A stretch of DNA of 7,839 bases from Candidatus Hydrogenedentes bacterium CG07_land_8_20_14_0_80_42_17 (lineage in GTDB: Bacteria; UBA8481), in NCBI GenBank assembly GCA_002780065.1, contig PEWQ01000033.1, positions 1-7,839 of the forward strand. Reading direction: 5' to 3'. Both the position numbers and the translations under genes were made by a program. This document shows, piece after piece, positions 2,277 to 7,787 of the stretch. How positions within the stretch are numbered: the first letter of the stretch is position 1; every line of letters begins with the position of its first letter. A model generated the notes under the pieces. The model was not told where the DNA came from. It did no database searches and saw only the letters and a program-made list of their open reading frames with translations.

Positions 2277-2464
2277 AAAAGGAAAAAGGTGTTATCGAAC
2301 TCAGACCTTATTCTACCGTAAATTGCAGGGTCATTCAAAGGCTCCAAATCCATCTTCTGACTTCCGCTGAAAGAATATGCACGGGCAAGCTGAAAATTAA
2401 CTTCGTATGACTCAGGATTTTTTCCGAGCACTTCTTCATAAATATTTTCTCCTTCTAAAATTTC
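2273..2464 (-). pseudogene. Startless remnant of a TPR-repeat protein (C-terminal piece)
   Basis: Most of the gap between the two convergent genes is covered by one minus-strand reading frame, open from 2494 and closed by TAG at 2273-2275. It contains a convincing TPR-like helix pair: IYEEVLGKNP, then SYEVNFQLARAYSFSG, matching the spacing of large and small residues and the Pro at the repeat boundary. After this the match fades (DPAIYGRIRSEFDN). There is no plausible ATG, GTG or TTG before the TPR segment, and the frame differs from that of the beta-barrel gene just upstream, so it is not a readthrough of that gene. I read it as the leftover 3' end of a former gene on this strand. Alternatives are chance similarity or a sequencing frameshift. 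The upstream protein ends properly in Phe, which argues against a frameshift inside it. Confidence 0.4.
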
Positions 2465-3294
2465 TGAGTGAATTCGAGACTCAATAACGCATCGTCAGCA
2501 TTATCCGTCGCTCCGAAGACAGCATTCCAATCGACTCTAAAACTGTCCGAAACGTTCCAGCTCAATCCGCCGCCGAATCTCAATACATCCTGATCCGAGC
2601 CTGCAATTTGAACTCCATTCAATCTGATATGACCTATTATGTTTCCTACAGTAAATAAATTTATTTTCACTCTTGGATTCAGCATTATGCTCGATCCGAC
2701 TCTGAATCTTAAATCTCCGCCGGGCTGAATTTTTCCGTAATTTGTAAAATGTTCAGGGAAGGTCCACTGGCGTCCAAGATAAAGATACATGACTGCAGGG
2801 TCAACAACTTTCAAAAATGTAAATCCTGGCGCAACTGAATAGAATCCGCTTCCGAGACTTCTGGAATGAACGTAAGGATTTTTCCCGGTCGGGAATGAGG
2901 CGTCAGTATGAAATATAACCTTCCAATCCTGCCGCCCTGCGATATCAAAAGAAAATTGTGTGTAAATATCGCCCCAGCCTTCCTGGCTCTCGCTGTAGAT
3001 GTAAGAAGGAAATTTTACACGTTCCTGTTCGATGTAAGAATACGGCGCTTCAACATAAAATTCGAATCGGTTTACAGGATTGACGCGCAATGAAAGTCCC
3101 AGCTGAGCCAGCCGATTGAATTCCAGCCCGTTTCTGTCGAAACTGAATGAAACTCTTGATCCGAACTCAGCGCTACCTTTCTTCAAAACATTAGTGGGTC
3201 TTGGAAGATACCATTGTTCGGCATTCACTGTAGTCGAAATTGCAAGAAGCAGATAGATGATTGAGGCGAGTTGTATTCTATTACGGCTAATCAT
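2455..3294 (-). CDS. Outer-membrane beta-barrel protein, FapF/Phenol_MetA_deg-like
   Basis: The 279-residue protein starts with a Sec signal peptide: a basic n-region, a hydrophobic stretch at residues 9-20, and a likely cleavage after A25 in TVNA/EQW. The remainder is rich in alternating polar and aromatic strands and ends in Phe (FTQKF), the usual C-terminal signature for BAM-assembled barrels. DASFPTGK near 131-138, LGSGFYS near 147-153 and DPAVMYLYLG near 165-174 recall the putative-transporter barrels grouped with the meta-pathway phenol-degradation family and with the FapF export barrel. It lacks the N-terminal coiled-coil plug region known from FapF. It overlaps the peptidase gene by 8 bp (ATGATTAG), with an AGAGG just upstream of its ATG, so the pair is coupled. 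Passage of a peptide or small molecule is inferred from family and context only. Confidence 0.75.
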   Translation of the reverse strand: MISRNRIQLASIIYLLLAISTTVNAEQWYLPRPTNVLKKGSAEFGSRVSFSFDRNGLEFNRLAQLGLSLRVNPVNRFEFYVEAPYSYIEQERVKFPSYIYSESQEGWGDIYTQFSFDIAGRQDWKVIFHTDASFPTGKNPYVHSRSLGSGFYSVAPGFTFLKVVDPAVMYLYLGRQWTFPEHFTNYGKIQPGGDLRFRVGSSIMLNPRVKINLFTVGNIIGHIRLNGVQIAGSDQDVLRFGGGLSWNVSDSFRVDWNAVFGATDNADDALLSLEFTQKF

Positions 3295-4018
3295 TGAATC
3301 CTCTCAGTTGAAAATTATTGGTCAAACTTATTGTTCTCAAAGCAGTATTATAGAGCGAATACGGAGCAATTTCATTTTCTTTCGTAATAATTTCCTTTGA
3401 GTCTCTTTTGAAAAAAACCTGTCCCGAATCACTCTTCCACGCCTGAAACGGCATTTTACTGATTACGAGCATTACTCTGTCTCCCTCTTCCCAAACCTTT
3501 CCGAATTGGGAGACCGGCAGACGAATCCTACCGTAAGCAGGATCGGACATCAAAAGCCATCCGTCTTCAATACCTTCGATCACTACAAAATGAAGATACT
3601 CGTCAAATAATTTAATTCTGCATATTGCCGGAGACAATCTGTCAAGTGCAACGACAGCGAAAGTGTCTTCGTTAATTTTAAGAGTTATGGCTTTGAATCC
3701 TGCTTTGCGGGCAATCTTCTCCAGATTTGCGGCCGAGATTTCTACTTCTTCGGAATCACTTTTATCTTCGAGCCGAAGCGAAGGAGAATCTTCAAGAATT
3801 GGAGTTAATACTTCCAGTTCAGACGTTGGAGTTCCTAGTTCGGTCATTACGGTAGCCAGCGCCGCGGCGCCGCATGTGAATTCGTGAGTCTGCCTCACCA
3901 TATTTTTATTTCTAACTTCGATAATGCTTTGAGGCTCCCGCAGTTCTTCTCGAATGCAGGCGGCGGAGAAAATTAAAGCAATGAATATTATCGCAAGTCG
4001 GACTCCTGCAAGCCGCAT
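3287..4018 (-). CDS. C39-like papain-fold cysteine peptidase, lipoprotein (FapD-like)
   Basis: From the ATG at 4018 the protein has 243 residues, opening with a compact lipoprotein signal: MR, hydrophobic LAIIFIALIF, and lipobox FSAAC with the lipidated Cys at 21. The peptidase domain follows. The oxyanion Gln (Q43) and catalytic Cys (C49) are in RQTHEFTCGAAALATVM, the His is H143 in LHFVVIEG, and the Asp is D159 in SDPAYG. All four positions are intact, so it could be active. It is not fused to an ABC transporter, unlike bacteriocin exporters; stand-alone C39 proteins of this kind occur beside beta-barrels, as FapD does with FapF. The frame also opens at an ATG at 4075, adding 19 residues (262 in total), but those codons come from an inverted repeat and would bury the signal peptide, so I prefer 4018. 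Neither start has a good Shine-Dalgarno. The substrate is unknown. Confidence 0.85.
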   Translation of the reverse strand: MRLAGVRLAIIFIALIFSAACIREELREPQSIIEVRNKNMVRQTHEFTCGAAALATVMTELGTPTSELEVLTPILEDSPSLRLEDKSDSEEVEISAANLEKIARKAGFKAITLKINEDTFAVVALDRLSPAICRIKLFDEYLHFVVIEGIEDGWLLMSDPAYGRIRLPVSQFGKVWEEGDRVMLVISKMPFQAWKSDSGQVFFKRDSKEIITKENEIAPYSLYNTALRTISLTNNFQLRGFND

Positions 4019-4023
4019 TTTTG

Positions 4024-4107
4024 AACCATTGAGGCACAGAGACACTGAGATTTTTTTATTAAAATTTATATTCATCTTTTTTTCCGCGCCTTCGTGGCTC
4101 CATAGTT
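4024..4107. repeat. Degenerate inverted repeat with AT-rich centre between regulator and peptidase genes
   Basis: Two 25-bp arms, 4024-4048 and 4083-4107, are inverted copies matching at 17 of 25 positions without gaps (plus-strand arm begins AACCATTGAGGCACAGAGAC). They enclose a 34-bp centre made largely of A and T runs. The GAGGCACAGAGACACTGAG wording resembles a dispersed intergenic repeat that I recall from many unrelated environmental genomes; that is memory, not a search. In minus-strand RNA it would form a long imperfect hairpin directly before the peptidase start, so it could affect readthrough from the regulator operon or translation. It overlaps the first codons of the longer peptidase frame. 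Confidence 0.6.
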
Positions 4108-4144
4108 TTATTCCATATTTTGATCGACTTGCATATAGCTGAAT

Positions 4145-5482
4145 TCATTCTCTAACTTTGTATTTCGAAATAAGCCGCAGAAGGGAAGTCCTGCCTATTT
4201 TGAGCCGCCGCGCAGCGACAGAGACATTTCCGCCTGTTTCAGATAAAGCAGATTTTATGACCGAGCGCGTCCACTCTTCAATAGCTTTTGACTTTGCTTT
4301 TTGAAATGGAAGATTTTCATCATGACTCTGTTCCATAAAATCGAAATGTTTTGGTTCAAGTCTCAACATTGTCGAACTGGAATCTTCTGCCAGAGCTCGA
4401 ACTATTCCCCGCTCAAGCGCGTTTGCTAATTCTCGAACGTTGCCGTTCCATTCTTTAAGCATCATTGCCGTCAAAACTGAAGGGACGATTTCGATAGGCT
4501 TCTCAATATTTTCTTTTGTTTTTTTTCTATCGAGAAGTGCTCTTACAATTACCGGAATATCTTCAGGCCTCTCTTTTAGACTAGGCATGTTAATTCTCAA
4601 AACATTCAATCTATAAAATAAATCCTTTCTGAATTTTTCCCGCGCTACAAGCTCTTCGAGCTTGACGTTAGAAGCGGCAATTATGCGCGCATCAACCTTT
4701 ATTGGCTTTTCTGCGCCGAGCGGCCAGATCTCTGAATTTTCGATTGCGCGCAGGAGTTTCGGTTGAAGTTCAATCGGAAGCGAATCGATTTCATCTAGAA
4801 ACAGAGTTCCTTCTTTAGACAGTTCGAATCTTCCTCGTTTCTTGGCGTGCGCGCCCGTGAATGCTCCGCGTTCATGACCAAACAGTTCGCTCTCGATTAA
4901 TTCCTTCGGGAGCGCTCCGAGATTGACCGCTATAAGAGGGCCGCTGCGCCTCTGTGAAGACTTGTGAATTGCGATAGCCGTCTCTTCCTTGCCTGTGCCA
5001 GTAGCGCCTGTAATCATTATCGGAGAGTTGGAAGACGCGGCCGCGTCGATCTCTGAGTAGACTCTTTTCATCGCATCGCTGATTCCGACGAGCCCGTATC
5101 TGCCTGCGCGTTCTGCAGTCCGTTTGAGTTCGATTTTTTGTTCGATCTCTTTTATGTGTAGTATTAATTCCTCAGGATCGAATGGCTTTGTGAGATATGC
5201 TCGTGCTCCGCTCTTCATTGCAGTCACTGCTGAAGGTATAGAACCGAAAGCTGTCATTATAATGATCTCAAGTTCGAAATTATTTTTTTTGCATTCAGTG
5301 ACAAATTCGACTCCGTCTCCATCAGGAAGCCTGAGGTCGCTGACAACAAGATTAACTGCAGAAACCTGCTTTCGCGCAGACTCTATAGACTCCGCTTCAA
5401 GAACCTCCCAGCCTTCAGCCTCGAGATTTGCGAGAAGCCCGGACCTCAGAGCATCATCATCTTCGACAAGTAGAATTTTCAT
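4145..5482 (-). CDS. NtrC-family sigma54-dependent response regulator
   Basis: The 445-residue protein has the classic three domains. The receiver (1-120) has acidic D8/D9, phospho-acceptor D49 in VVSDLRLPDGDG, T77 and K99. The AAA+ activator domain (about 130-360) has Walker A GATGTGKE at 159-166, GAFTGA at 206-211, Walker B LFLDEID at 227-233, sensor I IIAASN, arginine-finger region FRKDLFYRL and sensor II GNVREL. A Fis-type helix-turn-helix lies at about 417-441 (GGNVSVAARRLKIGRTSLLRL). The intact GAFTGA loop predicts contact with sigma54 RNA polymerase. The motif usually written WPGNVREL reads WNGNVREL here, a mild variation. Its ATG overlaps the kinase stop by 4 bp, so the two form a cognate pair. 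Its target promoters are not identified; the downstream peptidase and barrel genes are candidates. Confidence 0.95.
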   Translation of the reverse strand: MKILLVEDDDALRSGLLANLEAEGWEVLEAESIESARKQVSAVNLVVSDLRLPDGDGVEFVTECKKNNFELEIIIMTAFGSIPSAVTAMKSGARAYLTKPFDPEELILHIKEIEQKIELKRTAERAGRYGLVGISDAMKRVYSEIDAAASSNSPIMITGATGTGKEETAIAIHKSSQRRSGPLIAVNLGALPKELIESELFGHERGAFTGAHAKKRGRFELSKEGTLFLDEIDSLPIELQPKLLRAIENSEIWPLGAEKPIKVDARIIAASNVKLEELVAREKFRKDLFYRLNVLRINMPSLKERPEDIPVIVRALLDRKKTKENIEKPIEIVPSVLTAMMLKEWNGNVRELANALERGIVRALAEDSSSTMLRLEPKHFDFMEQSHDENLPFQKAKSKAIEEWTRSVIKSALSETGGNVSVAARRLKIGRTSLLRLISKYKVRE

Positions 5483-6990
5483 TTCTTATCACTAACACTT
5501 AATTCTATTCTAAAACTCGCGCCGTGTCCGTCTTCAAATCTATTTTTCGCTGTAATTTTTCCGCCGGCTGATTCGCAGATCTTTCTCACGATCGTAAGTC
5601 CTAATCCTGTTCCATACGGCTTTGTCGTATAGAACGGTTCGAATATGCGTTCGGGCTTTTCACCGAGTCCTGGGCCGTCGTCCTCCATAGTAATTATTAA
5701 TGACTTGCCGTTCGAAATAACTGAAATATTCAGCCGATTATTTTTAGAGAGCGCATCGCGCGCGTTCTCGAATAGATTTACCATCAGCTCTTGAAATTGA
5801 TCCGGATTGGCAGTGATTGAAGGTAGATTGTTTGAAATATTCAATTCGATTTTTATACCCTTTTCTTTAAAACTCTGTTCGAATAAAGCGGCAACTGTGC
5901 GAATGATATCAGATAACTGAAATATTTCTTTCGGCATATTTCGCTGGCGTGAAAAATCCAGAAGCAGTCGGACAGTTCGAGCGATTCGGTCTATTTGATC
6001 GGAAAGTATTTTTAATTCCAAAACAGTTTCTTCATCTTCAGTATATTTTTTTGTGATCAGTTTCAAGTGAGCTTTCATTGCCGCAAGAGGATTGTTGATC
6101 TCATGAGCAACAGTGCCGGCGAGTCTGCCGATTATTGCCTGCCGCTCCGCAGATGCAAGTTTATCTTCGATCTCTTTGAATTCAGTGAGGTCTCGAAATC
6201 CGATTATCGCGCCTTTACGGTTGGAATCGAAGAGATGCGGAGAGACCGTTATTCCCCACAATCTTCCGCCTCTTCCGAAGACCTCGACTCTGTGCTGAGC
6301 TTTGCCGGTGTCGAGACATGCCTTTATGGGGTCGTTTCTTATAAAACCGAATAGCTCGAAATAGTGCCGCTCCGAAATGTCTTTTCCGAACGCTTCTACT
6401 GCAGGTAAATTCGATTCAATTATTCTGCCGGAAGGGTCGAGAACAATTAGAGGCGAAACTATTGAAGCGAGTAAACTTTTTGTATGAGCGCGTTCAGACT
6501 CGATCTCTTTGGATTGAGTGATGCGCCCCATTGCAACGCCTGCGGAGCGAGACAGAATTTCGATGACTCGGATCTTCCATTCGTTTAATGCCGCTCCGTC
6601 TTTTATCGAGAGTATTGCAAATCCTAAAAGCCGCCAGCTGAAGAAGAGAGGCACCGCAAGATATGCGCTGTTATCTTTAGAATTCTCTTCTGAGCTTGAA
6701 AGTTTGGGAATAATTATCGGTCTCAACTCTTGCTGAAAATATGAAAGCCATTCAGAAGTGATTTTATTTCCGATTGAGGTTTCCGATTCCTGAGTCATTC
6801 CGCGTGATGCTAGTATTATATTTTCCTGATTCAACCAGACTCCGGCAGATTCGTAATCGATGAAGTGCTTTGACAAATTCAGAAAGAGCTCGGCGACTTC
6901 TTTGCAGGTAAAGATATCGTCGAATGATTCAGTGAATCTGAACGCCTCGATGATTTTGAAGTATGCGGAGCTCTCTTTGGATTTTTTCAT
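5479..6990 (-). CDS. Cytoplasmic GAF/PAS sensor histidine kinase (NtrB-like)
   Basis: The 503-residue protein has no membrane segment, so it should sense an internal signal. Residues about 20-155 look like a GAF domain (for example LAVPLFFSWRLLGFAILSI), and about 170-275 form a PAS domain (ASIVSPLIVLDPSGRIIESN through GAIIGFRDLTE). The HisKA phospho-acceptor is H296 in GTVAHEINNPLAAMK. The ATPase domain has the N box with N405 and N409 (NLFENARDAL), the G1 box DDGPGLG near 437-443, the F box FEPFYTTK and the G2 box GTGLGL at 460-465. All catalytic boxes are intact. It would phosphorylate D49 of the adjacent regulator. Both ends overlap neighbours by 4 bp (ATGA with the HDOD gene upstream and with the regulator downstream). 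Its ligand is unknown. Confidence 0.95.
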   Translation of the reverse strand: MKKSKESSAYFKIIEAFRFTESFDDIFTCKEVAELFLNLSKHFIDYESAGVWLNQENIILASRGMTQESETSIGNKITSEWLSYFQQELRPIIIPKLSSSEENSKDNSAYLAVPLFFSWRLLGFAILSIKDGAALNEWKIRVIEILSRSAGVAMGRITQSKEIESERAHTKSLLASIVSPLIVLDPSGRIIESNLPAVEAFGKDISERHYFELFGFIRNDPIKACLDTGKAQHRVEVFGRGGRLWGITVSPHLFDSNRKGAIIGFRDLTEFKEIEDKLASAERQAIIGRLAGTVAHEINNPLAAMKAHLKLITKKYTEDEETVLELKILSDQIDRIARTVRLLLDFSRQRNMPKEIFQLSDIIRTVAALFEQSFKEKGIKIELNISNNLPSITANPDQFQELMVNLFENARDALSKNNRLNISVISNGKSLIITMEDDGPGLGEKPERIFEPFYTTKPYGTGLGLTIVRKICESAGGKITAKNRFEDGHGASFRIELSVSDKK

Positions 6991-7787
6991 AATATCGAGA
7001 ATTCGTCCTCCACTGCACGCCTGATTATTTCTCTGAGATCGTCATATTTGTCGGAAACGCCGGAGCAAGATTCAAAGGAGCAATTGACGTATCCGAAGCT
7101 CTTCGAAATAGTGTCAGCTTCGAAGATGATTTCCGAGAGTGAATTTGCTATTGGAGTGTGATGCTGTTCTATTGCGGTGACCAATTCAAGAGGCAAATTC
7201 CAGCGGAGAAGAATACTTGCTCCAACCATGTCGTGCGACTGCCCCATGCATGAACTTTCTGCTTTACGACATTCCACTCCGCTTGCAATCATATCGAGCG
7301 ATGCTTTGTATCTGTCAGGCAGAGTTTTCGATAAAATGATTTTGCCTATATCGTGAAGGAGACCGGCAGTAAATGCCGTTTCGGTATCGTATATTCTTTT
7401 TTTTCTTGAAATAAACCGCGCCGCAACTCCGACCGCGATTGAGTGCCTCCGAAAAAGCTTTGGATCTATTGGACCCCAATTATGCCCGAGCGTGGAAAGA
7501 ATCGGGATAGAGAGGCAGAGCGATCTGATTATTCGAAACCCGAGTATTGCGGCGGCCTGAGTTATTGAGGTGATATGCTGAGGTATCGCATACAACCCGG
7601 AATTCGCCGCTCGGAGAATTCGAGCAGAGAGTGCCGGATCAGACGCTACCACGGATTCGAGATCGCGCATAGAAGAGTCGGGATCCGAAGATATTTCGAG
7701 CACGCGTTCGACAACGTAAGGAAGTGTCGGCAGATCGCTCACCGCATTTTCTACTTTGGTTAATAATTTGTCTAATGTCTCTGACAC
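6987..7787 (-). CDS. HDOD-domain signalling protein
   Basis: The 266-residue protein is a single HDOD domain (about 15-215) with a short C-terminal helix-rich tail. The entry motif DLPTLPYVVERVLEI near 18-32 and the segment SDPALSARILRAANSGLY near 49-66 are diagnostic. Unlike many HDOD proteins it keeps possible HD metal ligands: H115, H145-D146 in AGLLHDIGK, H185 and H209-H210. It has no HD-GYP signature, so cyclic-di-GMP hydrolysis is not predicted. HDOD proteins generally act as regulators of signalling or stress responses, and here it is the first gene of a kinase/regulator operon. The start is GTG, with only AAAGA immediately before it; an in-frame stop not far upstream (TAG at 7815-7817) excludes a much longer form. 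Confidence 0.9.
   Translation of the reverse strand: MSETLDKLLTKVENAVSDLPTLPYVVERVLEISSDPDSSMRDLESVVASDPALSARILRAANSGLYAIPQHITSITQAAAILGFRIIRSLCLSIPILSTLGHNWGPIDPKLFRRHSIAVGVAARFISRKKRIYDTETAFTAGLLHDIGKIILSKTLPDRYKASLDMIASGVECRKAESSCMGQSHDMVGASILLRWNLPLELVTAIEQHHTPIANSLSEIIFEADTISKSFGYVNCSFESCSGVSDKYDDLREIIRRAVEDEFSIL

Follow-up and report, generated by a model that had tools for sequence, protein, structure and literature searches.

What does a C39-type peptidase do when its gene overlaps that of an outer-membrane barrel and no amyloid subunit is encoded nearby? The window, by which we mean the whole 7,839-nt stretch analyzed (contig PEWQ01000033.1 of Candidatus Hydrogenedentes bacterium CG07_land_8_20_14_0_80_42_17), carries such a pair (Table 1). 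A sequence-only reading had taken it for a minimal relative of the FapD/FapF module of Pseudomonas. We consider it likely that the two genes form a minimal export module under NtrC/sigma-54 control. Judging from relatives, the peptidase would sit in the periplasm, held by its lipid anchor, and would trim the leader of a protein that Sec has carried across the inner membrane; the mature protein would then exit through the neighboring FapF-like barrel. The cargo gene is not beside the pair and probably lies elsewhere in the genome, and the upstream two-component system together with sigma-54 probably switches the module on.

Table 1. Features of the window, listed in the direction of transcription
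Feature	Coordinates	Strand	Remarks
HDOD-domain protein	6987..7787	-	first gene of two-component operon
PAS histidine kinase	5479..6990	-	4-bp overlap with regulator; possible regulatory partner
NtrC-type sigma-54-dependent response regulator	4145..5482	-	upstream of pair, co-oriented
Dispersed ~60-bp repeat, two inverted copies	3996..4134	4056-3996 on -, 4081-4134 on +	in regulator-C39 gap
C39 peptidase open frame	3287-4075	-	262 aa from ATG 4075
C39 peptidase gene, likelier start ATG 4018	3287..4018	-	243 aa; lipoprotein-type signal MRLAGVRLAIIFIALIFSAAC
FapF-like outer-membrane barrel	2455..3294	-	279 aa; signal peptide helix 4-22; C-terminal Phe (...FTQKF); without coiled-coil N-terminal domain

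The peptidase frame passed Pfam Peptidase_C39 (3.2e-16, 59.8 bits, cut-off 22), and its best NCBIfam match was FapD (5.4e-14), at 52 bits far under the 330-bit cut-off of that equivalog (NF058616). FilB, another NCBIfam family, also matched (2.5e-10), far under its own cut-off. All four active-site positions claimed at first reading were borne out. Q62, C68, H162 and D178 (262-aa numbering) are invariant in a 5-sequence alignment; among 63 sequences Q, C and H never vary and D is kept in at least 90%. By alignment, the Gln, Cys, His and Asp of peptidase family C39 are all in place. A model of the peptidase (pLDDT 81.4) found its top fold matches in the double-glycine peptidase domains of PCAT1 and ComA. 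As in family C39 generally, its substrates would be cleaved at a double-glycine-type leader.

ATG 4018 is the likelier start of the peptidase gene, rather than ATG 4075, and gives a 21-aa signal. The lipobox described earlier is present (...IFSAAC), with Ser at position -3 where Leu is usual, and agrees with the permissive lipoprotein pattern. A lipobox-like signal was found in just 6 of 81 related peptidases, which makes lipid anchoring a minority trait among them. The 8-bp overlap of the peptidase and barrel frames was likewise found as described, at 3287-3294 on the minus strand.

FapF, not an unrelated porin family, heads the NCBIfam, PDB and fold searches made with the barrel: it is the best NCBIfam family (4.2e-9) and comes first in a sequence search of the PDB (1e-7). 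At 35.7 bits the barrel does not reach the 700-bit cut-off of the FapF equivalog (NF058560), and FilC matches it weakly (0.052, far under cut-off). The signal peptide and terminal Phe noted earlier are both there. An AlphaFold2 model was confident (pLDDT 90.5), and Foldseek returned 18 FapF chains on top (E 4.9e-19) with the COG4313 channel next; because the prediction alignments include FapF relatives, this fold result and the homology search do not count as independent. Structural alignment begins only at FapF residue 97, so that the window barrel has neither the coiled coil nor the linker; fewer than 20 residues, with no helix, separate the signal helix from the first strand (residue 41). 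In the plug region no helix was modeled ahead of the first strand, part of this stretch being of low confidence. In lacking the coiled coil the window barrel departs from FapF, whose periplasmic coiled-coil domain is essential (PMC6173795).

The barrel could instead serve the uptake of hydrophobic small molecules, as a channel of the COG4313/Phenol_MetA_deg type, with the peptidase gating or maturing it or acting on something else. The barrel does pass Pfam Phenol_MetA_deg (PF13557; 1.8e-8, 35.2 bits, gathering cut-off 22), it has no FapF-like periplasmic domain, and it shares a barrel fold with the P. putida F1 COG4313 channel (PDB 4rl8), its next-best match. VIA-align gave Z 27.7 against that channel (11% identity) and Z 29.3 against FapF (rmsd 1.6, 243 residues, 25% identity). 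With Z nearly equal, it is the sequence, in these identities and in the NCBIfam and PDB searches, that settles the comparison for FapF. Linkage to a C39 gene, described next, is also near-universal for such barrels, whereas C39 partners are not reported for COG4313 channels (PMC6173800). We regard the uptake channel as unlikely.

The linkage comes from one C39-alignment scan of 85,000 species genomes, blind to neighbors, which yielded 80 stand-alone relatives in Pseudomonadota, Thermodesulfobacteriota, Myxococcota, Planctomycetota, Elusimicrobiota, Campylobacterota, Aquificota and Nitrospirota. A barrel profile was seeded from the barrels of the window and of one Elusimicrobia locus (L024) alone, and then iterated. 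It placed a homologous barrel near 78 of the 80 relatives, 73 of them already with the first two-sequence profile; one of the two barrel-less loci (L025) is cut by a contig end. The two genes lie within 1.5 kb of each other in 72 loci and within 50 bp in 26. The genomes checked carry 1–3 such barrels each in total, and therefore chance colocalization is excluded. Peptidases routinely lacking a barrel neighbor would have told against the sequence-only reading; this is not what was found.

The window and the Elusimicrobia locus form one clade in both the C39 tree (support 99) and the barrel tree (support 100), so the peptidase and barrel genes have been inherited together. The Elusimicrobia pair is orthologous, intact and ∼37% identical to that of the window; there the C39 and barrel genes are followed by one for a secreted protein (390 aa) that belongs to no known family. 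Within the window's genome both genes are single-copy, save that contig C130 carries a weak barrel relative.

Some barrels elsewhere had features of their own. The Dyella genome of locus L073 has a second full barrel (C19:372996-374959), beside a sigma-54 activator and away from its C39 locus. The barrel of L047 (7222-8289) carries an excisionase-type HTH_17 domain directly behind the signal peptide (Pfam 3.4e-10), odd for the periplasm, and by eye the barrel of L059 (4076-5188) resembles it.

Placement of the pair behind an NtrC-type two-component operon, as first read, was upheld. The HDOD, kinase and regulator genes are joined by successive 4-bp overlaps, and the regulator is followed by a gap of 69 bp (to ATG 4075) or 126 bp (to ATG 4018). 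At 31 of 81 related loci, sigma-54 activators lie 0.5–4.5 kb away from the peptidase gene. Several of these genomes have just 5–21 such activators, and the chance expectation estimated from activator densities is near 3% per locus, with many of the loci mutually related. The window genome has rpoN and 8 sigma-54 activators. HDOD genes recurred near related pairs at none of the loci.

In the gap before the peptidase gene, a dispersed repeat of ∼60–65 bp (TAAAAAATCTCCGTGTCTCTGT..CTCCGTGGTTCAAAAATGCTACTTGCACGAGCCCGG) is present as two inverted copies; a stretch of 1.39 Mb of the window genome contains about 40 matches to it. Copies occur in L125, L209, L233, L237, L104 and others, many within a few hundred bases of contig ends. 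The first copy runs into the 5' end of the peptidase gene, supplying the likely ATG 4018 and first codons. The two inverted copies can fold (-39.2 kcal/mol, z -3.1), and because the gap holds them, co-transcription of the pair with the two-component genes is not established. On inspection by eye, a sigma-54 promoter ahead of the peptidase gene was rejected: the sole GG-N10-GC seen sits in this repeat-bearing gap.

What might such pairs export? A survey of the homologous loci for a third gene found that leader-bearing secreted proteins usually lie near the pairs. They belong to several unrelated Sec-secreted families and share a leader of double-glycine layout behind the signal peptide. Examples are 'VSEHRLEAVRGG' in a protein in FapE's position, 'VDIQELEQLRGR' in secreted proteins of halomonads, 'MSDDAGTQVRGL' in Planctomycete paralogs, 'MSDSELAGITGQ' in Desulfoluna, 'ISDEELDDVSGG' in Aquificales, and 'LGQDEMKNTEGEWGIWGAIAGAISG' and 'LNNDEMQSTQGFGFW' in small bacteriocin-like proteins of L048 and of Helicobacter L033, respectively. 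Pfam Lactococcin matches one such leader at 1.9e-4, slightly below cut-off; leader-bearing proteins also matched Pfam DUF6160 (9.9e-16) and NCBIfam FilA (2e-10).

Leader matrices were trained on one lineage set and tested on the other, as a guard against circularity, with a score threshold of at least 10. Of 246 signal-peptide ORFs from 17 loci of other phyla the proteobacteria-trained matrix picked out 13, compared with 2 of the 1040 in the window genome (p 2.6e-8). Reverse training gave 32 of 1520 against 1 of 1040 (p 7.1e-7); these p values are optimistic, because ORFs within a lineage are related and a single genome served for comparison. Internal positions of the same ORFs (2/104 and 5/716) gave a weaker contrast. 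It is plausible from these sequences that the shared leader is a general cleavage signal. A limited search of open-access literature found no description of a leader common to Fap, Nap and related systems.

Other secreted proteins were seen at these loci. In L031, L038, L039, L028, L054 and L056 (mostly Planctomycetes) there are secreted paralogs of 130–220 aa in which 'MSDxxGxxVRG' follows the signal peptide, with up to five of them around the single C39-barrel pair of L031. Beside the pairs of L033 (9609-9938, Helicobacter), L048 (8791-9222, a marine bacterium) and L023 (7759-8133) lie small secreted proteins whose leaders are double-glycine-like and whose C-termini are rich in Gly/Ala and bacteriocin-like. 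Long Gly/Ser/Asn-rich secreted repeat proteins are encoded just upstream of the peptidase in L034, L040, L055, L060, L082 and ∼20 more loci, many of them proteobacterial; they do not match the Fap repeat profile and are candidate structural cargo.

For the window itself, the earlier statement that it encodes neither a FapB/FapC-like repeat protein nor double-glycine cargo was confirmed, the former with a repeat profile. The assembly is 87% complete at 2.39 Mb, of which the matrix scan covered 1.39 Mb (58%); in that part no leader-bearing secreted protein rose above noise and no double-glycine, bacteriocin-like peptide was found. The canonical leader S-[DE]-x-E-L-x-x-h-x-G, searched as a degenerate DNA pattern over the whole assembly, had no credible match; its five matches were rejected as spurious or not at an N-terminus. 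The window genome contained no homolog of the 390-aa Elusimicrobia protein and no FilA-type DUF6160 protein, and a FapC-like query found nothing in it, a search without a close positive control.

Cargo genes may have been lost in this lineage, leaving a pair that is decaying or repurposed. The absence of cargo from the window and the scanned part of the genome would fit such a history, as would the start-less TPR-like frame directly downstream of the barrel and the dispersed repeat inserted into the 5' end of the peptidase gene. Yet both frames are intact, the catalytic residues are conserved and the fold is confident, and the orthologous Elusimicrobia pair is intact despite its divergence. 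We find this history improbable, more so than the uptake channel. A complete Fap amyloid system with fapB, fapC and fapE apart from fapD and fapF is very improbable. In its favor, no named family is nearer than FapD and FapF, and some genera have fapF split off (PMC3792158). Against it, the searches for a Fap repeat protein in the window and, as just qualified, in the genome were empty, both scores are far below the equivalog cut-offs, and the barrel has no coiled coil. A Fap amyloid operon proper was also rejected (no subunits, no coiled coil). The downstream frame, at 2291-2473 on the minus strand, resembles a single TPR unit (TPR_19, E 0.0024, below cut-off) and is possibly a gene remnant.

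We return to the export module. Counting for it are the best family matches, FapD and FapF, the FapF fold of the barrel, the PCAT1 and ComA fold matches of the peptidase, the linkage and joint inheritance of the two genes, the leaders near relatives, the need for FapD in FapC secretion, and the sigma-54 activators and rpoN; counting against it are the lack of a cargo, the missing coiled coil, an identity of ∼25% or less to any characterized system, and an assembly that is 87% complete. Kinship to FapD/FapF, as first proposed, is supported by profile, sequence and fold. Like the window pair, the Pseudomonas proteins comprise a periplasmic C39 peptidase with a catalytic Cys and a nearby FapF-type barrel (PMC5557850, PMC6173800). 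The window differs in having no FapA, FapB, FapC or FapE, no coiled coil on its barrel, a predicted lipoprotein peptidase, ∼25% identity and a two-component operon upstream. FapD activity is required for FapC secretion, and GG sites in FapE are already suspected (PMC5557850); the FapD substrate has been described as undetermined (PMC5557850, PMC6173800).

The same layout is seen in the colocalized fapD/fapF homologs reported in 2018 from outside Fap operons in five further phyla (PMC6173800). These are two-gene pairings without a full fap operon, as in the window, and the main text of that report gives neither cargo nor mechanism. Minimal pairs were there taken as homologs less than 5 kb apart; those of the window overlap. 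The sequence-only reading had the pair outside its usual context; the setting is less unusual than supposed, in view of those published pairs and of the sigma-54 activators near 31 of 81 related loci. In Neisseria, the nap island likewise has a C39 peptidase and a FapF-like channel, NapP and NapF, proposed to process and export GG peptides (PMC11798529); its cargo genes lie between napP and napF, whereas the window encodes no such peptide. The putative pilus system FilA/FilB/FilC (NCBIfam NF050077-NF050079) matches the window pair through FilB and FilC, but its DUF6160 FilA is lacking in the genome; a limited search of open-access literature found nothing on FilB/FilC function.

The window pair is a divergent, cargo-orphan member of the known FapD/FapF-like pairs, grouping with Elusimicrobia. 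Colocalized fapD/fapF homologs and the similar NapP/NapF pair were already known (PMC6173800, PMC11798529). The window adds a divergent pair with a coiled-coil-free barrel, a predicted lipoprotein peptidase and no Fap subunits. More tentatively, C39 peptidase and FapF-like barrel may constitute a general second-step secretion system in at least 8 phyla, in which proteins exported by Sec would have a double-glycine-like leader trimmed in the periplasm and exit by the barrel. On that view cargo would fall into many classes, with amyloid subunits and bacteriocin-like peptides as two of them, and the window would be a deep-branching version under NtrC control whose cargo has gone unrecognized. A common leader on unrelated secreted proteins beside the pairs is a concrete, testable candidate cleavage site, and offers a route to new cargo in many phyla, including bacteriocin-like peptides and surface proteins. 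The divergent, coiled-coil-free window barrel is of use in finding out what FapF can do without.

A Fap-like arrangement was noted in L020 (genome G138, 5710-9066), where three Fap-repeat proteins lie upstream of a FapD. The barrel there is ∼4 kb from FapD on the opposite strand, with sigma-54 activators nearby.
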